24,898 bases of DNA from a virus, in the IMG/VR virus record IMGVR_UViG_3300043568_002888, positions 1-24,898 of that record, one strand, 5' to 3'. The first letter of the stretch is position 1. Each line of letters starts with the position of its first letter. Under the pieces are notes generated by a model. That model was given only the letters and a program-made list of their open reading frames with translations, did not search any database and was not told the origin of the DNA. A program made the translations under genes and the position numbers. Positions 6,104-24,484 of the stretch are shown here, piece after piece.

Positions 6104-6113
6104 AAATAAATAA
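6104..6113 (+). promoter_or_regulatory. ATAAATA late-type promoter
   Basis: AAATAAATAA, with core ATAAATA at 6106-6112, lies 23 bases upstream of the ATG at 6136. It resembles the T4 late promoter (TATAAATA, -10 element only). It precedes a gene with a capsid-targeting-like N-terminus. Confidence 0.55.
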
Positions 6114-6135: not shown

Positions 6136-6726
6136 ATGATTAAGACCTTTAAAACTTTTACAAATGAAGCACTTAGCCCAGCTATTTTAACTAGTTCAAT
6201 TAATGAGTGTACAGCTAATCAACTTAAGAGTATTTCTGAATTTAAAAGTACTTATAAAACTGAGTTAGATAAAGCAAATAAGATTGTTAACGTATACCAG
6301 GTAATTGATAAATTTAGTACCTGGCTAGTTGGTAAAACTCCAGCAATGGTCCAAGCTGCTCTATTAAATTCGCCAGGAACTGCTGATAAACTGGTAATTG
6401 AGGCATATACTTTCATTTATATGGAAATACAAAATCAATTAAAGTCAATTGGTACACTTAAAAAATCAGCACTTAAATTACTGGCTCCATCCGCTGCTGA
6501 CTTTGATTCGCAAAAAACTGACTCAGACTTAGTGAATCAAATTATACAATTAGTGGAATCGTTATTTGATGTAGGCTTTATGATTGGTTACAAATTTGAC
6601 AGTAAGTCAATTGAGGCAGATAATGCTTCAAACTGGTCAGTTTCTTTTACCAAATCTCTTAATTCTAGGAAATCTTTAATATTCAAAAATATTAAACTAT
6701 TAATTCGTAACTTTTTATATAACTAA
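6136..6726 (+). CDS. Tagged head-internal candidate, unknown function
   Basis: This 196-residue protein starts MIKTFKTFTNEALSPA, sharing MIKTF with two other genes in the window. The T-N-E|A at residues 9-12 sits where the other tagged proteins have [LI]-x-E, so the site is slightly off consensus; a second candidate, I-N-E, lies a few residues further in (SSINECT). The rest is mostly helical, Lys/Ser/Leu-rich, with no enzymatic motif I recognise. It has its own late-type box and follows an early exonuclease gene, marking a change in expression class. I infer a packaged internal protein. Confidence 0.75.
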   Translation: MIKTFKTFTNEALSPAILTSSINECTANQLKSISEFKSTYKTELDKANKIVNVYQVIDKFSTWLVGKTPAMVQAALLNSPGTADKLVIEAYTFIYMEIQNQLKSIGTLKKSALKLLAPSAADFDSQKTDSDLVNQIIQLVESLFDVGFMIGYKFDSKSIEADNASNWSVSFTKSLNSRKSLIFKNIKLLIRNFLYN

Positions 6727-9880: not shown

Positions 9881-9901
9881 AATATAAAAATTATTTTAGG
9901 T

Positions 9902-14483: not shown

Positions 14484-14831
14484 ATGGAAATTAGAAAAAT
14501 AACCTATAAGGAAGTTGATCATGAATTCAGCGAACTTAAACCTGACCTACTAGACGAATATGCAACCTATTATGGGTGCTTTATTAAAGATGAATTGGTT
14601 GGAGTTGTTTCGTATGTTGAACACGCTGCTGTAATTTATCTTTGCCATGCATATGTTAAAGAAGAACACAGAAGTCAGGGCATCTATAAATTATTGTGGA
14701 ACTATAGAGACTCTAAAATAAAAGAATCAGATAAATCTATTTATGCACACTGTAATGTTGATAGTTTAAAATATTTTATCAACAATGGATATGCAATTGA
14801 AAAGGCCCTATTTAAAGTAGTTAAATTATGA
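14484..14831 (+). CDS. GNAT-family N-acetyltransferase
   Basis: The 115-residue protein has the GNAT acetyl-CoA-binding motif A, LCHAYVKEEHRSQGIYKLLWNYRD (~50-74), with the R/Q-x-x-G-x-G/A-like loop as HRSQGI, and the motif B region DSLKYFINNGYAIEK. It is short for a GNAT (usually 140-170 residues), but the core strands are present. Substrate unknown: a protein lysine, N-terminus or small molecule. It starts 3 bases after thyA and overlaps the next gene by 4 bases (ATGA). Confidence 0.75.
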   Translation: MEIRKITYKEVDHEFSELKPDLLDEYATYYGCFIKDELVGVVSYVEHAAVIYLCHAYVKEEHRSQGIYKLLWNYRDSKIKESDKSIYAHCNVDSLKYFINNGYAIEKALFKVVKL

Positions 14832-15034
14832 AAAAAGTATTAAGAATTGAACCATATTGTTATAAAACATGGTCACCTGCATTTAAGCAAATTGGCTTAA
14901 TTTCCCCGTATATTACCTATAATCCAGAAGGTCACTTTGTTGAATCTGGAGTTAGCTCTTGGCTATTAATAGTAAGTTTTAATATACTAATTTGGGATTT
15001 TGGATTCAGGATCTATTATGATCTTGAATATTAA
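14828..15034 (+). CDS. Small membrane-associated protein
   Basis: The 68-residue product has one hydrophobic segment near its C-terminus (SSWLLIVSFNILIWDFGF, ~43-60) and a polar aromatic N-terminal part. It is coupled to the GNAT gene through ATGA. Its TAA interleaves with the stop of the convergent gene on the minus strand. Function unknown. Confidence 0.6.
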   Translation: MKKVLRIEPYCYKTWSPAFKQIGLISPYITYNPEGHFVESGVSSWLLIVSFNILIWDFGFRIYYDLEY

Positions 15035-16365
15035 GCAGTCTGAGTTGAGGTTAATGAATTAGCAAAAGCTTTTGCTTTTTGTAAACCGACTGAAACAACT
15101 GCTCCATCTAATGAAGTCCCCCAACCTGCGTTAGACCTAATATAGTCAGTAACTGCTGAATCTAAATCTGAATAGTTATTTGGATTTTTACCATGTCTCT
15201 TAAATGAATCAATAAAATATAGGATTGCAAATTCTGCTGCAATCTCAGGTTTTTCAAGAAGTTCAGGATTTTTAACAATATCAATACTACCTAAAGACTG
15301 GTTTGACTTATTATAAATCTTTTGTAGGTTTTCGTAATTTCCTTTAAATGTTATTCCATTAAAACCGCGGCCTCTGTATTTTTCTCCATCTCCTGGTTCA
15401 GTATTGCCGTACATTCCTCCATATACTGCTTCCCAAAATTTACTGTCAAAGCCAGTTTTGCCTAATTGTTTCCAACCTTCAATTTCTTGATCTGAATATT
15501 TTGAAATTCTGGCTCCAAATACTTCTTTCATTCTTGCAATTGATGTACTAAAATACGAAGTTTCACTACCACCTTTTGAAGACTCTTTTGAAATTACTCC
15601 TAAAATTGCTTTACGTGCAAATTCATTTGTTATTCCATTTTTGTCCATTGACTTTTCTAATGCAACCATATTTTCTTTTGGAAAGCCGCCTCCAGATTTA
15701 AAGTTAGTACCTTTACCTGCAGTCAATGAAGTTGAATATTTGTCTAATTCTGCTTGAGAAAAATTCTTTTCTTTTAATTTAGCAATAAGCCTCTTAATTA
15801 AGTCCGAGTCAATTACAATACCGCTGCTAGATAAATTACCAGCAGGTGCTTCCGCTCCGGTTAAGCCACTAACTGTAATTGGATCATCGACTTTGGCATT
15901 TGCTGTTTTTGAATTTTCTGCACTTTTGCCATATGATAAATGAAAGTGACCGCCAGTAGCAGCCGCAGTTGGATTAGAGTATTCATCAATATAACTAAAG
16001 CCTGGAGTTCCAGCTGAAATTCTGTCTAATATAGTAATCATTTGTTTACGAGCTTCTCCAGAATTTGGAGTTATGGCTAAGTCAATTGCTTGGCCTTTAG
16101 TATGTCGACTCACATATGATAAATTATGGTGAAATGCATCATTGCCTCCAGTAACTGTAACTTTAACAGTTGGTGCAAGTTTTTTAAATTCTTCAAGAAC
16201 TACTTTTGTAATCTTTTGAATATCATCAGTAATATCTCCACCGCTGCTAATCTCAGAAGATTTTTCAGAATATCCTAGCTCAGCTAAGGTATCTCTAAGC
16301 TCGTCAGATTGAGAGGCTTCATTAAGCGCACGTTTAAAGTCAGTATATGATTTGATTTTGGTCAT
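15031..16365 (-). CDS. Two-domain peptidoglycan hydrolase (M15 peptidase + GH19-like)
   Basis: The 444-residue protein has a tagged N-terminus (MTKIKSYTDFKRALNE|AS). An M15-type zinc peptidase domain follows, with SRHTKGQAIDL (~86-96) and GHFHLSYG (~139-146), giving His88, Asp95 and His142 as metal ligands. After a linker comes a lysozyme/GH19-like domain: AILGVISKESSKG with a likely catalytic Glu261, and YGNTEPGDGEKYRGRG (~319-334). Together they would cut the peptide stems and the glycan strands of the wall. The upstream gene supplies a peptidoglycan-binding domain and is coupled by TAATG. It could be an endolysin, but the tag suggests a virion-associated enzyme. Confidence 0.88.
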   Translation of the reverse strand: MTKIKSYTDFKRALNEASQSDELRDTLAELGYSEKSSEISSGGDITDDIQKITKVVLEEFKKLAPTVKVTVTGGNDAFHHNLSYVSRHTKGQAIDLAITPNSGEARKQMITILDRISAGTPGFSYIDEYSNPTAAATGGHFHLSYGKSAENSKTANAKVDDPITVSGLTGAEAPAGNLSSSGIVIDSDLIKRLIAKLKEKNFSQAELDKYSTSLTAGKGTNFKSGGGFPKENMVALEKSMDKNGITNEFARKAILGVISKESSKGGSETSYFSTSIARMKEVFGARISKYSDQEIEGWKQLGKTGFDSKFWEAVYGGMYGNTEPGDGEKYRGRGFNGITFKGNYENLQKIYNKSNQSLGSIDIVKNPELLEKPEIAAEFAILYFIDSFKRHGKNPNNYSDLDSAVTDYIRSNAGWGTSLDGAVVSVGLQKAKAFANSLTSTQTA

Positions 16366-16730
16366 TATATTCCCTGATCTTTTTTAGTAGCTTCATTAAA
16401 CTTCTTGATTGCATCAGCTGTTTCTGGTCCAAAATAGCCATCTACTCCAAATTTTGGAAGTGAATAACCTAGGAACATTAAGGCAGTTTGAATATTTTCA
16501 ATCATCTTTGAATATTGCATTTCTCCTGTTTTTTGAACGGGTACTGACTTATTTTCTCTTGCAAAATCTTCAAGTGTTTTATAAAATTCAGAAAGTTTAT
16601 CGTCAATTAGCTCCTGATTGTCAGTATTACCCTGTTTCTTAGCTGTGCCCTCTTCGCTCTTTCCGGTTAACCAGTCTAAAAAACGGCCTTCGTTAAGGTT
16701 TGAATTAAATTCAGTAAAGGTTTTAATCAT
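16365..16730 (-). CDS. Tagged peptidoglycan-binding protein
   Basis: The 121-residue protein starts MIKTFTEFNSNLNE|GRF, a clear capsid-targeting-like tag. The C-terminal ~45 residues form a PG_binding_1 domain (IENIQTALMFLGYSLPKFGVDGYFGPETADAIKKFNEA, given here in part: VDGYFGPETADAIKKF). It would anchor to the cell wall and help the hydrolase encoded downstream, to which it is joined by the TAATG overlap. Two late-type boxes lie upstream on the same strand. Confidence 0.85.
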   Translation of the reverse strand: MIKTFTEFNSNLNEGRFLDWLTGKSEEGTAKKQGNTDNQELIDDKLSEFYKTLEDFARENKSVPVQKTGEMQYSKMIENIQTALMFLGYSLPKFGVDGYFGPETADAIKKFNEATKKDQGI

Positions 16731-16779: not shown

Positions 16780-17532
16780 ATGCCTGAATCAATTAAAAGA
16801 GTTGTGCTGAATGGATTTAGATACTATCAAGTATCTGATTCAACTGGAATACTGGGAACTTTCCCAAGTGTAACGTCTGTACTTGGAGATACCTCTGATA
16901 AATCTGGACTTGATGCTTGGAGAAACCGAATCGGTCACCAAAAAGCCGATCAAATCGGACAAGATGCAGCCAACCGTGGAACTGTAATGCACAGGTTATG
17001 CGAAATCTATCTTAATTTGCCACAGTCAATGTCTGCCAAGGACAGACTCGAGGACACTTTGTCCTTGGCCAGAATAGACGATGAGATTGATCAATTTGAT
17101 AATCGAGCAAAAATTGTAGGTGGCATGCTCTTCTATAATTTTATAAAATCAAAGTCGTTTGATGAAATTAAACGGGTAATTGCCCAAGAGCGATTCTTAT
17201 GGACTGCTAGGGATGGTGGATTTGCTGGTACCGTTGATAATGTTTCTGAATTAATAACTGGTGACCATGCAATTGTAGATTTTAAGACAGCTCGTAAACC
17301 AAAGGAAGAAAAATGGATTGAAGACTATAAAAATCAAGTTGCAGCATATTCAGTTGCAGTTTGGGATCGCATGCAGGTTAAAACTGTTACTTGCAGAATT
17401 TGGATTTCAAATGAAGTAAATTTAGCTCCACAGCACTTTAGAATGGACTCTAGCGAAATGCGAGAATACTATTTTAAATTCAGAGAAAGACTAGCCGACT
17501 TCTATAAGAAGAATCCACCAATTGTACTTTAG
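16780..17532 (+). CDS. RecB-like PD-(D/E)XK nuclease
   Basis: The 250-residue protein has the PD-(D/E)XK nuclease pattern of RecB/Cas4-like enzymes: NRGTVMHRLCE (His71, Glu75), then GGFAGTVDNV (Asp153), the core DFKTARK (Asp167, Lys169) and the trailing QVAAY (Gln186, Tyr190). It probably degrades DNA as an exonuclease or processes recombination and packaging intermediates. It is a single gene between two divergent/convergent late genes. No obvious early-type box precedes it; the ATG follows a late box that reads the other way. Its stop interleaves with the convergent gene's stop. Confidence 0.88.
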   Translation: MPESIKRVVLNGFRYYQVSDSTGILGTFPSVTSVLGDTSDKSGLDAWRNRIGHQKADQIGQDAANRGTVMHRLCEIYLNLPQSMSAKDRLEDTLSLARIDDEIDQFDNRAKIVGGMLFYNFIKSKSFDEIKRVIAQERFLWTARDGGFAGTVDNVSELITGDHAIVDFKTARKPKEEKWIEDYKNQVAAYSVAVWDRMQVKTVTCRIWISNEVNLAPQHFRMDSSEMREYYFKFRERLADFYKKNPPIVL

Positions 17533-19493
17533 ACAATCTCAGTTCGGTCAGTGATCTTTCTTAAAAGATCTAATCTAACTGGAGTAGGTCTTTCAGCTCC
17601 ACCAAATGTTCTTAAGTAAATAAATGGCTGATTTGCAGTATTTCTGGTTGTATAATCACATTTAGATAAAATACCCCAATTGTTTTGGTGATTTGCAATA
17701 TAGTAGTGATCTCCGGCTCTGGCCATTAATTTATCCTGTTCAGTAACAGGTTCAAGGCTTAGGGCAACTAACCCCATTCCAACAAATGGACCTTCAACTG
17801 TTTTACCAGTAACTACATTAATTAGCATAATATTACGAGGATTGCTAATTAATTCTTGCGGGCTTTCAACTGACCTTGTTGCTCTACCTATTTTTTCAAC
17901 TGCTACAAATACTGGAACTCCAGCGGCTCCTCTAAGGGTTGCTTGTTGAGGTTCTGCTAGAACTACAAATTTTGCAAAATTACCAGTTCTGATTTTCTTA
18001 AGCAGGTCAAGATTATCTAAAGTTTGGCGATTATTAACAGCCTGTTTTAATTCAGTTCCAGTAAAATCAAGTTTACCAAATAAGGCTTTGTCTGCAGTTC
18101 TGGCCAAGTTTTGAGAACGATCTCTTTCAATACGTTCTCTTTCTGCTTGAGCTTCAGCATCTCGGCGTTGTTGAATTACTTCAGGGCGTAATCTATTGCT
18201 AATAAAGGTTTTGCCAGCTGGGGTTAAGTTAACCCTATCTAAGTCAGGAATACTTTCAATATTTACTTTAACCCAAATTGATTTATCATTTGTTGTTCGG
18301 GTATCGCCTGCATCGCCTGGAGTAAGTTCACCTTGCTCAATTCTGATAGCATCATTAATACCTACCGCAATATAAGTTCCGTTACGTACATCAACCACTT
18401 GTCTAATTGGTAAGCTACCGTAGCTTGCATCATACAGGTAGCTTTTAACTACAATAAAGTCGCCAACTTGCCATTCTGCATCTGGCTCTGCACCAAATTG
18501 TGTAATACGAGTAGCAAGACGTTGCCTAGTTTCAGCCTCTTCACGAGTTCTACGCTCTCTATCTGCAATTGCTTGGCGTTCTGCTCTTTCTCTGTCAAGA
18601 CGTTGAACTTCTGATCTAGCTGCATTAATTGAGGTTAATTTCTCAGTTGGTATACGGCCGTCTCGGCCTAATGAAGTTAAATAATCATCATCTAATTTTG
18701 TTAAAAATGTATCAGGTAAAAGTCCAAGAAGTTCATCATCAATATCAAATCTGTCCGGTTTTGTGTTATTAAAACCAATTTGACGTTCAATAAATCTTTC
18801 AGCTACATCAATTTTTGATTGAGTGCTTATACTTTTATCCATTGCCATCCAACTACCTGGACCAATTATTGCTAGCGCATCATCAACTGACGGTGTTCCA
18901 TCTGGGTTTGCTTTATAGTCTAACAATGACCCCCAAGCTTTGTCCTTTTCGGTAGTTCCACTTGAATTTGATGAAATATAACCTGCATATTTTAATAGTG
19001 TTCGGTACAATTTGTAACCTAATCCTGTACCCCTAAGCGCTGGTCTAATTCCATCATTTGGGAAATGGCTGCGTTGAAATGAGCTAGGCTCTTCAGTTCT
19101 AAGATAAACTGACGTACCGGATGGATACACATCTCTCCATTTACCAAAATCCTCTTTCATTCGCCCTTCATCAAGTTGCTTAATTTCCTTGAGTAAATCA
19201 ACAATAGGTTGTGGAAATTTTGGATAATAGTCTCTGGTATTACTGGGCTTTTCCATTGTAATCTCAAGTCTAGAAACCTGTTTTAGTGCACGAGTTAAAT
19301 CAGCAGCAACTTCTGTATAACTTCTGCGAACTGGCTGATTTGCCATACGCTCTCTACGAGTAACTGTTTCTTGTCTAGCTCTACCGATATGACTTCCAGC
19401 TAATCGTTCAGGGCGTTTAACTCCCATTTCATCAACTAGTCCACCCTGATTAATATTTGATTCATTAATTGCTTCTATAAAAGACTTTGCCAT
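17529..19493 (-). CDS. Large tagged virion protein with possible GNAT domain
   Basis: The 654-residue protein starts MAKSFIEAINE|SNI, with I-N-E at the predicted cleavage site. Residues ~75-210 include IRPALRGTGLGYKLYRTLLKYAGYISS, resembling the acetyl-CoA loop (RGTGLG) of GNAT-type acetyltransferases. Two Arg/Glu-rich helical stretches (~285-325 and ~430-455) separate beta-rich, SH3-like parts (WQVGDFIVVKSYLYD). The protein is single-gene, from a late-type box 25 bases upstream. By analogy with T4 Alt, which is packaged and injected, it could be an injected modifying enzyme; the GNAT call is by eye only, and it could be a structural protein. Confidence 0.7.
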   Translation of the reverse strand: MAKSFIEAINESNINQGGLVDEMGVKRPERLAGSHIGRARQETVTRRERMANQPVRRSYTEVAADLTRALKQVSRLEITMEKPSNTRDYYPKFPQPIVDLLKEIKQLDEGRMKEDFGKWRDVYPSGTSVYLRTEEPSSFQRSHFPNDGIRPALRGTGLGYKLYRTLLKYAGYISSNSSGTTEKDKAWGSLLDYKANPDGTPSVDDALAIIGPGSWMAMDKSISTQSKIDVAERFIERQIGFNNTKPDRFDIDDELLGLLPDTFLTKLDDDYLTSLGRDGRIPTEKLTSINAARSEVQRLDRERAERQAIADRERRTREEAETRQRLATRITQFGAEPDAEWQVGDFIVVKSYLYDASYGSLPIRQVVDVRNGTYIAVGINDAIRIEQGELTPGDAGDTRTTNDKSIWVKVNIESIPDLDRVNLTPAGKTFISNRLRPEVIQQRRDAEAQAERERIERDRSQNLARTADKALFGKLDFTGTELKQAVNNRQTLDNLDLLKKIRTGNFAKFVVLAEPQQATLRGAAGVPVFVAVEKIGRATRSVESPQELISNPRNIMLINVVTGKTVEGPFVGMGLVALSLEPVTEQDKLMARAGDHYYIANHQNNWGILSKCDYTTRNTANQPFIYLRTFGGAERPTPVRLDLLRKITDRTEIV

Positions 19494-19576: not shown

Positions 19577-20299
19577 ATGCAAAAACTCACATTTACTAAA
19601 CAATCTATCCTAATTTCATTTTGGGATGAAACTTCTGAAAAATGGATAGAGAGAAATATGGCTGATGCAAGTTTACCAATCACTTGGTATTTACCGTATG
19701 AAGTTCATATAGAGAAAAATGTGACCTTAAGAGATATTATTAATATGTTAATTCCATATTCTGAGCAACTAAATTTTGTGTTTCTTGCATATCTTAATGG
19801 AGTTCAAGTTGAGGACCTATTTGCTGAATTGTTAAGCCGACCTGCTGAACCTCATGATCTTAAAATAGATGCAATTTGCCTATTATGGATGGGTCAAGTA
19901 AAACCTGTGCCGGATATTGATGACTTAAAGATATACACATTTCCAGCTCTACTTGCTCTGGAAATTATTGACGAAGACGATGATGGTTCAGAGGATGAAC
20001 TTCATAGTATTTACGATATAACAGTTGATCAATTATTAGATAAGTCAATTGTGATTGATGATTTCCTAGAATATTATGACGATGACAAACATAATGATGC
20101 ACTATTTAGCGGAATAACCGATTGGCAATTCTTTGATTTTATCAGAACTATATTAAGCGAATTGGTTCTTTATAGCTTTACAACTGATATAATTAAAAAA
20201 TCAGACTTAAATACTGATCCAATTGGGCCATCTGAATTATTTGAGCATCTTGATAAACTGGATAAATTTTTTAAAGATGAACCAACTGATTTAAGTTAA
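19577..20299 (+). CDS. Acidic hypothetical protein
   Basis: The 240-residue protein is strongly acidic, with runs such as EIIDEDDDGSEDE (~134-146) and EYYDDDKHND. A possible ubiquitin-like start (KLTFTKQSILISFWDE) is followed by helical segments. The acidity could mimic DNA or bind a basic partner, but nothing shows this. A weak box AGTAGAATA at 19550-19558 lies 18 bases before the ATG. The next gene follows within 60 bases. Confidence 0.7.
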   Translation: MQKLTFTKQSILISFWDETSEKWIERNMADASLPITWYLPYEVHIEKNVTLRDIINMLIPYSEQLNFVFLAYLNGVQVEDLFAELLSRPAEPHDLKIDAICLLWMGQVKPVPDIDDLKIYTFPALLALEIIDEDDDGSEDELHSIYDITVDQLLDKSIVIDDFLEYYDDDKHNDALFSGITDWQFFDFIRTILSELVLYSFTTDIIKKSDLNTDPIGPSELFEHLDKLDKFFKDEPTDLS

Positions 20300-20356
20300 T
20301 GGTAATATAATATGCAATTGAAAGTATCTAAGCTTTTGTGGTATATTATATTAAGT

Positions 20357-21364
20357 ATGAGATCAAAGAAAATAAAAACTTTTTATACTCCAAAGCAGGT
20401 TTTAGAAAATGACAAGACTTCTAATTATAGTAAGTCTCCACTAAAACCCAAGTTGCTTTTGGAATATTTAAAACAGAAAAAACTTCTTGGCAATTTTTCA
20501 ATAACTGATGATTTTAAACCATTTACTAAAACTGATTTTAGAATGGCTCATCATAAAAGTTATGTGGAAGATTTTTTTAATGGGACTGGGTTATGTAGTT
20601 CAAATTCATTAGCGTGGTCAAAGCAATTTGCTGAATCAATTAGATATACAAATTCATCTCTGTATTCAGCAATCCGAAATTCAATAGTTAATCCAAAGCA
20701 AGTTAGTTTCAGTCCAACTAGTGGGTTTCACCACGCCCGACCATCAGGCGGCAGCGGATTTTGTACATTTAGCGGTCAAGTAATTGCATCACTTAAAATC
20801 TATAATGAATTTGGATTAAGCGGAGCCTATTTAGATTTAGATGGGCATTTTGGAAATTCAATTGAGGATAGCCGAGGTTTCTGTAAAAACTTAAATAAAG
20901 CAGTTCCATTAGATTTTAATATTAATCCAGAAGGATATGACTCTGACTATTTAGCAGATCTTGCAAAATGGTTAGAAAGATTAAAATATGCTATCCTAAC
21001 CGATAAAATTCAATATGTAGTTTGGTGTCATGGCGCAGATTCGCACGCTGATGATAGCTTAGGAAGACAATGCGATACTGACCATTGGCTTGCATGTTCA
21101 ACTCTTTTTTGGAAATGGGTAAAAAAGATGGATGGGTTATTAGGAAGGCCATTACCTGTAGCATGCGCACTATTTGGAGGATACCGGGATGACGATTATA
21201 ATTCAGTCTTAAGTTTACACACCAGTGACTTTGTTGAGTGTTTCAAGGAATTGCTTGAGGTCGACGTTAAATATACTATAGAGGTAAGTCCTCGTCAAAA
21301 AATTGGATATTGTGATGGTACGAGACTACGTAGAAAACGAAGAACTATGGATCAAAAAGTATAA
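20357..21364 (+). CDS. Histone-deacetylase-fold (arginase/deacetylase) hydrolase
   Basis: I chose the ATG at 20357 because MRSKKIKTFYTP is a natural start for this fold and a TATATTATA box precedes it; an earlier ATG at 20312 would add 15 residues. The 335-residue protein carries the zinc-hydrolase motifs of class I/II HDACs and bacterial acetyl-amidohydrolases: GFHHARPSGGSGFC with the His pair (125-126), DLDGHFG (Asp160, Asp162, His164), HGADSHADDSLG with Asp228, and GGYR. These residues bind zinc and activate water to remove acetyl groups from lysines, polyamines or similar amides. The substrate is unknown. Confidence 0.85.
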   Translation: MRSKKIKTFYTPKQVLENDKTSNYSKSPLKPKLLLEYLKQKKLLGNFSITDDFKPFTKTDFRMAHHKSYVEDFFNGTGLCSSNSLAWSKQFAESIRYTNSSLYSAIRNSIVNPKQVSFSPTSGFHHARPSGGSGFCTFSGQVIASLKIYNEFGLSGAYLDLDGHFGNSIEDSRGFCKNLNKAVPLDFNINPEGYDSDYLADLAKWLERLKYAILTDKIQYVVWCHGADSHADDSLGRQCDTDHWLACSTLFWKWVKKMDGLLGRPLPVACALFGGYRDDDYNSVLSLHTSDFVECFKELLEVDVKYTIEVSPRQKIGYCDGTRLRRKRRTMDQKV

Positions 21365-21518
21365 AGATATTGACCGCAAAGGAGTTACCTCAACCTATTG
21401 GAAGGAGGTTCTTGGCGTAATTGGATATTTGGAATATAAAGAAAATTATGAGGGTTGCCAAGAGCTTTGGGATTACTATAAAGAAATAACAAATGGCAAA
21501 CAAGACGATACTGACTAA
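21315..21518 (+). CDS. Small hypothetical protein overlapping the deacetylase gene
   Basis: The ATG at 21315 gives 67 residues (MVRDYVENEELWIKKYKDID...); the TTG at 21303 is a less likely start. It overlaps the end of the deacetylase gene by 50 bases in another frame, unusually long for this compact genome. The body is helical and charged, rich in Tyr and Trp (STYWKEVLGVIGYLEYKENYEGCQELWDYY). Function unknown. Its transcription ends at the terminator that follows. Confidence 0.65.
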   Translation: MVRDYVENEELWIKKYKDIDRKGVTSTYWKEVLGVIGYLEYKENYEGCQELWDYYKEITNGKQDDTD

Positions 21519-23180: not shown

Positions 23181-23990
23181 TTATAGATTATTGATATAGT
23201 TATTAAGAGATAATTCAAGTTGCTCGGTTCCAGTTAAAGTAGATGAAGGTTCACCATAATATAATTCATAGCGATCTTCTAAAAGATCAGCTGCATCCAC
23301 TTCATTTTTTAGGTTAAGTAATCTAATACCAAACCAATCAGCTTCCATTTCTTGACGTTCATCATATTGATTTGCTCTATCGTATTTAGAGGCCGAGTGC
23401 TCTAATTCAAAATGTGCAATTTCATGAGCTTCAATTGCAAGTATGTGATCACTTGTTAAGTTTTGACTCTCAATTATTACTCCATCAATATAGATAGTTT
23501 TTAAGGAAAGATCTGCAAATGCAATTCCTAAATAGTTAAAAATCTTTGCAAAATCTTTATATAGGGAATCCTCTGGCCAAAGGGCAATAACTGTCCAGTC
23601 TAGATCAAGTTTACTTTTCCAAGCAGTAGGTTCTGCTGATTCTGACAAATTATAACGCTTCATTTTTGAAGCGCGTTGACCAGTTAGGTCTCTCCATAAC
23701 TCACGTACATCAGGTTGAGCTAAAGTATCCGCCTGTACCATTGAATAAAATTGATTATCTGAGTTCTGCATCATTGCGAACCATTCTTCTAGTGTTGGTT
23801 TCTTAGGTAGTGCGGCTATTCTAGTCTTTAACCGACGGAACATTGGAAACAACTCTGTTTCATATTTGTCACCGGTATGAGGGTTTCTGCCGAATTTACG
23901 ATTAATACCAAGATCGCTTAATTGCTTAAGAGGTCTTGGATGCTCAATATTTTCAGATACCCATGTATTAAAGTTTACAATCGTTGCCAT
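23181..23990 (-). CDS. Tagged HExxH zinc metalloprotease
   Basis: The 269-residue protein has the zinc-protease motif AIEAHEIAHFELEH (HEIAH at ~189-193) and a downstream glutamate in ERQEMEADWFGIRLL (~211-225), the E-x-x-x-D pattern of M48/ImmA-IrrE (M78) type gluzincins. A preceding strand TIYIDGVIIES (~165-175) is the usual edge strand. It starts MATIVNFNTWVSE|NIE, fitting the tag pattern loosely, with V-S-E as the site. If packaged, it could be injected and cleave a host protein; it might also act in virion maturation. It opens a late operon from a box only 7 bases upstream. Confidence 0.8.
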   Translation of the reverse strand: MATIVNFNTWVSENIEHPRPLKQLSDLGINRKFGRNPHTGDKYETELFPMFRRLKTRIAALPKKPTLEEWFAMMQNSDNQFYSMVQADTLAQPDVRELWRDLTGQRASKMKRYNLSESAEPTAWKSKLDLDWTVIALWPEDSLYKDFAKIFNYLGIAFADLSLKTIYIDGVIIESQNLTSDHILAIEAHEIAHFELEHSASKYDRANQYDERQEMEADWFGIRLLNLKNEVDAADLLEDRYELYYGEPSSTLTGTEQLELSLNNYINNL

Positions 23991-24040: not shown

Positions 24041-24484
24041 ATGATTCATAAATATCAACAATGGATTGAAGAATCTGAAAAAGTTGAAGCAAACGAGCAA
24101 GTGCCAACCGCTACTCCAGAAGTAACGGCAGCAACTGATGCAACCGCTTTACCGGTTACAACTGAAACACCAGCCGCAACTACTCCAGAAATTCCATCTG
24201 AACCAGAAATCGTATCAGCTGAGTCTGAAATTGAAGAATACCAAACTTTAGATAAAGCTCGTAGAGAAGCAATTAAAGCATTTAAAGAAAAACAAGGCGA
24301 ATTCTTGGAAATTCCAGAAGACATTCGTAAAAACCCAGTTGAAGAAGCTGATAAAACAAAAGTTGAAGAATTAAAAACTGCTCTAATTGAACTTAATAAA
24401 ACAATGAAAGCTGCAATTACTGCTTGGAATAAATTTAATTCAATGGCTCTTGGTATTGAAGATGACGAAGACATTGAACCATAA
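24041..24484 (+). CDS. Tagged head-internal candidate, Pro/Glu-rich
   Basis: The 147-residue protein starts MIHKYQQWIEE|SEK, with I-E-E as predicted cleavage site. Residues ~19-70 are a Pro/Thr/Ala/Glu-rich disordered stretch. The remainder is helical and charged (KARREAIKAFKEKQG, ELKTALIELNKTMKAAI), ending in an acidic tip EDDEDIEP. No enzyme motif. It lies 2 bases upstream of another tagged gene. It resembles a scaffold or small internal protein; role inferred. Confidence 0.78.
   Translation: MIHKYQQWIEESEKVEANEQVPTATPEVTAATDATALPVTTETPAATTPEIPSEPEIVSAESEIEEYQTLDKARREAIKAFKEKQGEFLEIPEDIRKNPVEEADKTKVEELKTALIELNKTMKAAITAWNKFNSMALGIEDDEDIEP

Follow-up and report, generated by a model that had tools for sequence, protein, structure and literature searches.

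HDAC-fold proteins of large phages form a separate clade nearest to class IV deacylases

Background

Zinc-dependent histone deacetylases (HDACs) have been studied as cellular regulators, and in the literature searched functional work on viral HDACs was found only for giant eukaryotic viruses (PMC9992855). The giant-virus proteins (Yasminevirus, Hyperionvirus and Catovirus) are likewise virus-encoded members of the HDAC fold, but they belong to viruses of eukaryotes, share 14-17 % identity with the protein described here and, where characterised, are acetylpolyamine amidohydrolases of the polyamine branch. HDAC-domain proteins of tailed phages include gp202 of Rhodococcus phage E3 (HM114277; annotated in GenBank as 'putative histone deacetylase protein') and a hypothetical protein of Microbacterium phage Magritte. 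Both are only about 26-29 % identical over a part of the protein and fall outside the phage clade reported below. No description of the present family was found in the open-access literature searched, and the main jumbo-phage survey is silent on it; the phage-wide clade appears to be undescribed in that literature, though a distant phage gene had been annotated earlier.

The closest described enzymes are class IV (HDAC11) deacylases, represented here by Leptospira interrogans HDAC11 (9gz5/9rjd), Vibrio cholerae HdaH (9gky/9gkv) and Chlamydomonas reinhardtii HDAC11-1 (9rje). The fold, all catalytic residues, the GN of DxDxHxGN and a core of about 300 residues are common to these and the phage proteins, and both have an (S/G)G(F/Y)HH loop rather than RPPxHH. 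However, the phage proteins share 18-19 % identity with class IV and form a separate clade on a long stem. Their loop 1 reads SxSPxKP, where clade B has HPFD and clade A has HRFP, and they lack Glu94 and have an invariant Phe before GGY. Clade A enzymes, which also lack the loop-2 acid, show little or no acyl-peptide activity and have no known substrate (PMC13325672). A conserved phage clade makes it testable which acyl group large phages remove during infection, and the clade A substrate question, too, could gain from a phage enzyme whose infection phenotype is defined.

Results and discussion

Gene and reading frame

The window, i.e. the whole stretch of DNA that was analysed, is a virus record of 24,898 bases. 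It was confirmed as phage by its other genes, which include a phage-type exonuclease, an ATP-dependent DNA ligase and a DNA-polymerase exonuclease subunit. The gene under study and its nearest features are as follows.

20357..21364 (+): gene for a predicted HDAC-fold deacylase (335 aa plus stop), recognised by Pfam PF00850, the AlphaFold model and invariant catalytic residues
20339..20348 (+): promoter-like TGGTATATTA of the extended -10 type, just 5' of the HDAC start codon; putative function
19577..20299 (+): 240-aa gene directly 5' of the HDAC gene on the same strand, upstream in 28 loci of the window lineage only
21315..21518 (+): small conserved ORF that overlaps the HDAC gene at its 3' end, in 26 loci of the window lineage

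The longest ORF starts at 20312 (+) and ends at 21364. However, the start at 20357 was preferred because most relatives begin with the same M(R/K)xxxIKTFY, and because the segment 20312-20356 aligns with promoter-like DNA in relatives (the 20339-20348 element). In many close relatives the motif TTTTGGTATAWTA precedes the HDAC start despite differing flanks. The window protein matched Pfam Hist_deacetyl with an E-value of 1.1e-16 (61.5 bits; cut-off 27.9).

Close relatives were found in IMG/VR contigs at 11 loci by the initial search and at 53 loci when an alignment was used as the query. Several lie in records larger than 200 kb. In addition, relatives are present in phage records of 636 kb and 735 kb (56 % and 48 % identity, respectively), and the family as a whole extends over dozens of other large and huge phages. 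The family alignment consists of 32 phage members, all of which match Hist_deacetyl (E-value 0.001 or better), and nearly all informative close pairs have a dN/dS of about 0.07-0.11 (Nei-Gojobori). On these two grounds the observation is not due to chance; the ORF is confirmed as real and is under strong purifying selection. A misread or decayed ORF was ruled out by the dN/dS values together with the invariant active site. One relative (L020:3818-4728; LR756511, a 595-kb phage) occupies two overlapping frames with profile E-values of 2e-22 and 4e-11, and is either split, frameshifted or affected by a sequencing error.

For the window HDAC, no matching family was found in PHROGs or NCBIfam. A reading as a defence-system gene was not retained, as PADLOC gave no match.

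Predicted fold

The AlphaFold model of the window HDAC had a mean pLDDT of 88.7 and a pTM of 0.89, and only the last 19 residues fell below 50. When the model was compared with the PDB using Foldseek, 9gz5 (Leptospira HDAC11) and 9gky/9gkv (V. cholerae HdaH) came first (E-values 8e-16 to 1e-14; TM 0.76-0.78 by target length), followed by class II and other deacetylases (TM about 0.6). The 50 PDB matches listed were all HDAC-superfamily deacylases. Profile searches by sequence gave the same order, with class IV at 1.7e-15 and 4e-10, class I at 4e-8 and class II at 3e-6. The deacetylase fold suggested in the original prediction is therefore borne out by the predicted model, with class IV as the nearest group.

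In the viral structure library (BFVD), full-length matches came only from giant eukaryotic viruses; no full-length phage match to the model was obtained, and one phage fragment of 113 residues matched with an E-value of 0.002. An arginase-like reading, named in the original prediction as one that would count against it, was rejected because the PDB matches listed were all deacylases and the sole arginase match, from the viral library, was weak. Loss of the zinc site, the other such outcome, was seen in none of the homologues. That the window protein is a functional HDAC-superfamily enzyme is almost certain.

Active site and substrate pocket

The following sites are numbered from the start at 20357.

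20720..20734 (+): codons of the SGFHH active-site loop (S122-H126), with the foot-pocket gatekeeper F124 and the catalytic pair H125/H126
20834..20857 (+): codons of D160-N167 (DLDGHFGN), with zinc ligands D162 and H164; D160, D162, H164 and N167 present in 32/32
21038..21040 (+): codon of D228 in HGADS, third zinc ligand, 32/32
21173..21184 (+): codons of F273-Y276 (FGGY), with the carbonyl-polarising Tyr276 and the unusual bulky Phe273, 32/32

H125/H126, D160, D162, H164, N167, D228 and Y276 are identical in all 32 aligned phage sequences, so the claim that all metal ligands and the catalytic His pair are present holds for the family as well as for the window. We take H125/H126, D160 and Y276 to be the equivalents of HDAC8 H142/H143, D176 and Y306, and D162/H164/D228 those of D178/H180/D267, while N167 occupies the class I Asp183 site, where class II enzymes and HDAC11 normally have Asn. 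As in characterised HDACs, zinc (held by D162, H164 and D228) and Tyr276 would polarise the acyl-amide carbonyl and the H125/H126 pair would activate water, with an amine and a carboxylate as the released products. It is very improbable that catalysis has been lost and that the protein serves in binding or regulation: although its SxSPxKP loop 1 and FGGY are unusual, the catalytic residues are invariant in 32 divergent sequences that evolve under strong purifying selection.

Three signatures mark the family: loop 1 reads S-x-S-P-x-K-P, the His pair is followed by CTFxGQ, and the catalytic Tyr lies within F-G-G-Y-R. All three are absent from the other HDACs compared. Of the 32 aligned sequences, 22 have Phe and 10 have Met as the gatekeeper preceding the His pair. 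Loop-2 position 84 (HDAC11 Glu94 / HDAC8 Asp101) is occupied by G, S, A, N, F or K and never by D or E (n = 32). Positions 94/98 are S(T)/T (S94/T98 in the window protein), without an Arg-Glu pocket plug. The residue before GGY is Phe in every member; other HDACs have Gly, Ala, Ser or Glu there, and a bulky residue preceding GGY restricts the foot pocket (PMC11532494).

When the specificity rules of two papers (PMC11532494, PMC13325672) were applied, the pocket residue set fitted neither published class IV clade. Among the clade A signatures (loop-1 Arg, Gly94, Thr/Ser gatekeeper and Arg-Glu plug), G/S at position 84 fits, but the F/M gatekeeper and S(T)/T at positions 94/98 do not. Of the clade B signatures (HPFD, Glu94 and Phe/Tyr gatekeeper), the F/M gatekeeper is present, but HPFD is lacking and position 84 carries neither D nor E.

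Our main reading, to which we give roughly even odds (about 0.5), is that the protein is a catalytically competent Zn2+-dependent HDAC-fold amidohydrolase, of a phage clade nearest class IV, that would remove a short acyl group from an atypical substrate. The bulky Phe273 should narrow the acyl pocket, which indicates a short acyl group, and the absence of the loop-2 acid indicates that the substrate is held differently from an ordinary acetyl-lysine peptide. Since the pocket set fits neither class IV clade, we favour this combination of acyl group and substrate only as a loosely held best guess. The enzyme may act on a non-peptidic substrate, perhaps a small molecule or a nucleotide-linked amide. 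However, the clade lies on a long stem, so that specificity rules transfer to it from other HDACs at some risk, and the F/M gatekeeper together with S94/T98 looks more like clade B, whose enzymes are long-chain and peptide-active, than like clade A.

It is possible, though doubtful, that the protein is instead a lysine deacetylase that resets the acetylation of host or phage proteins (such as RNA polymerase, nucleoid proteins or metabolic enzymes) early in infection. Its fold and chemistry are those of lysine deacetylases, and acetylation by phages has precedents in AcrVA5, which acetylates Cas12a (PMC10286901), and in the GNAT Rac, which according to work cited in PMC7824862 acts on host RNA polymerase. 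However, 32/32 sequences lack the acid with which the peptide backbone is held, and no GNAT partner is consistently present.

A long-chain defatty-acylase resembling HDAC11 of clade B is unlikely. Such an activity would agree with the best fold match, a Leptospira HDAC11 holding a C12 fatty acid, with the Phe gatekeeper of most members and with the lack of a plug at S94/T98, but the invariant Phe273 should fill the pocket where HDAC11s have Ser, Ala or Gly, and both the HPFD motif and Glu94 are lacking.

Still less probable is an acetylpolyamine amidohydrolase freeing spermidine for phage replication. Giant eukaryotic viruses do encode active enzymes of this type, and phages encode spermidine acetyltransferases (PMC9992855). 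However, the RPPxHH and EGGY motifs of polyamine deacetylases (cluster 4; PMC11532494) are absent, the window protein having TSGFHH and FGGY, and the nearest structures are of class IV. Spermidine synthase was found in 0/9 large HDAC-bearing phage records, which may be incomplete, so that its absence and those of the GNATs and sirtuins counted below are weak evidence. We rejected a polyamine module on this count, and the polyamine action proposed in the original prediction is not supported, as the motifs are missing and no polyamine-pathway context was found.

Acetyltransferases and gene neighbourhood

Two other genes of the window had been put forward as acetyltransferases.

14484..14831 (+): small GNAT acetyltransferase (Acetyltransf_10, E-value 2e-7; 31.6 bits against a cut-off of 23.6)
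17529..19493 (-): 654-aa conserved neighbour with an RGTGLG motif, near the HDAC gene in 31 loci of two phage lineages

The GNAT at 14484 is real by its Pfam match. However, it was found only in the six phage loci whose HDACs are at least 93 % identical, and it probably lies outside the HDAC system. Canonical GNATs occur in 4 of the nine large HDAC-bearing phage records. A conserved pair of HDAC and 14484 GNAT was rejected, because this GNAT is limited to near-identical phages and five of the nine records lack a canonical one. Sirtuins occur in two of the nine, as SIR2-family proteins at G006 323762-324265 and W03 408270-408830 (E-values 4e-46 and 2e-42).

For the protein at 17529, described earlier as possibly GNAT-like, the R-G-T-G-L-G motif and the conserved position near the HDAC gene stand. 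However, neither the protein itself nor any of 17 homologues gave a Pfam GNAT match (the protein itself matched no Pfam family), and the best PDB fold match, the GNAT NatD, was weak (E-value 0.035, TM 0.30); we do not regard it as a proven acetyltransferase. The proposal that the phage both adds and removes acetyl groups is supported only in part, and not in the form in which it was put: the 14484 GNAT is confined to near-identical phages, no family search bears out a GNAT fold for the 17529 protein, and the 17529 gene has another promoter type than the HDAC gene.

In both lineages the homologue of the 17529 gene adjoins the HDAC gene or is separated from it by a few genes, and the arrangement differs: it is upstream and divergently oriented in the window lineage, whereas in the 735-kb phage and its relatives it lies downstream of the HDAC gene, 25 bp away and on the same strand. 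The homologue is single-copy in each large record searched from the two linked lineages. Both lineages belong to a single supported part of the tree, so common descent may explain the link. The 636-kb phage has more distant homologues far from its HDAC gene.

Outside the window lineage the HDAC neighbours differ from phage to phage, and bacterial copies stand beside unrelated housekeeping genes; for these reasons gene neighbourhood was discarded as a substrate clue. No conserved neighbour points to a substrate, which also counts against the main reading. About as improbable as polyamine deacetylation is the deacylation of a modified nucleotide or DNA base, in phage DNA maturation or in taking off a host mark. 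In its favour, jumbo phages are known to carry acyl modifications of DNA bases made by the GNAT superfamily (PMC7824862), the phage HDAC has features that suggest a non-peptidic substrate, and the window also holds DNA ligase, thymidylate synthase and repair genes. However, no DNA-hypermodification gene was recognised beside the HDAC gene and, outside the window lineage, no link to DNA-metabolism genes is conserved.

In smaller contigs (L050, L053-L060) a small gene near the HDAC gene resembles, by eye, the ClpS adaptor core (LFNDDENSFAYVMACLIKFCGHEPQQAEQ...), which hints at phage interference with the N-end rule.

Phylogeny and hosts

In a maximum likelihood tree (quick method, long branches, root not inferred), the phage sequences formed a clade with an SH-aLRT support of 99, separate and on a long stem. 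Its nearest outgroup is a pair of HDAC-like proteins from Saprospiraceae (L131 and L132; genomes G432 and G499). The pair shares SPTSGFHHA, GFCTF and an SPSAKKPK loop 1 with the phage HDACs. Unlike these, it keeps DLDSHxGDGT and AGGYQ, consists of standalone bacterial genes and is more distant (E-values 1e-29 to 1e-32, compared with 1e-140 for family members). At one Saprospiraceae locus (L160:3978-4832 and L160:4839-5786) the nearest-outgroup HDAC gene follows what by eye is an SMI1/KNR4-type-like immunity gene, possibly a polymorphic-toxin neighbourhood. Most other Bacteroidota HDACs retrieved by the profile are of the ordinary class IV type (E-values 1e-6 to 1e-18), which carries a clade A type HRFPM loop.

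Four Bacteroidota chromosomal copies are nested in the phage clade at three places. Two of them, from a pair of related genomes, are flanked by genes that are clearly cellular, and the housekeeping genes adjoining the bacterial copies, as judged by sequence, are metK and argH. This nesting fits repeated phage-to-host transfer of the HDAC gene and suggests Bacteroidota as the phage hosts.

Phages that carry the gene probably use it to remove acyl groups from some component of the cell that they infect. A wider picture, which we offer tentatively, is that large phages, probably of Bacteroidota, have their own HDAC-fold clade, that this clade moved from lysine deacylation to a short-acyl non-peptidic amide (small molecule, nucleotide or defence signal), and that the gene was repeatedly handed back to bacterial chromosomes.

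Promoter-like motifs and N-termini

The HDAC would be made inside the infected cell, because its gene has its own promoter-like element and the protein has no capsid-targeting N-terminus. The same type of motif also precedes the DNA ligase and UvdE genes. Perfect copies of TAGTATAATA followed by exactly five bases and then ATG were observed at window positions 1944, 3250, 7003 and 12650 (+), before a 61-aa ORF, DNA ligase, UvdE and a 117-aa ORF. With up to two mismatches allowed, nine matches were found and 1.8 were expected. With this spacing transcription would begin at the ATG or beside it, so these genes may have leaderless mRNAs.

The 17529 gene is preceded by a different motif, ATAAATAAC, which recurs before several structural-looking genes and lies just upstream of five genes (5 found, 0.75 expected). 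The difference in motif type suggests, without proving it, that the HDAC and 17529 genes are expressed at different times. ATAAATAAC resembles the T4 late promoter TATAAATA, with sites at 6106 (+) and at 9900, 16769, 19517 and 21908 (-), and several of the genes behind it encode T4-like capsid-targeting N-termini.

An N-terminal motif similar to M-x(2-4)-F/Y-x2-F/W-x-E, as in T4 head-packaged proteins, starts seven window ORFs (2137-2604, 6136-6726, 15031-16365, 16365-16730, 23181-23990, 24041-24484 and 24487-end). One of these encodes a Nudix hydrolase by Pfam, and the ORF at 23181 has an HExxH metallopeptidase motif.
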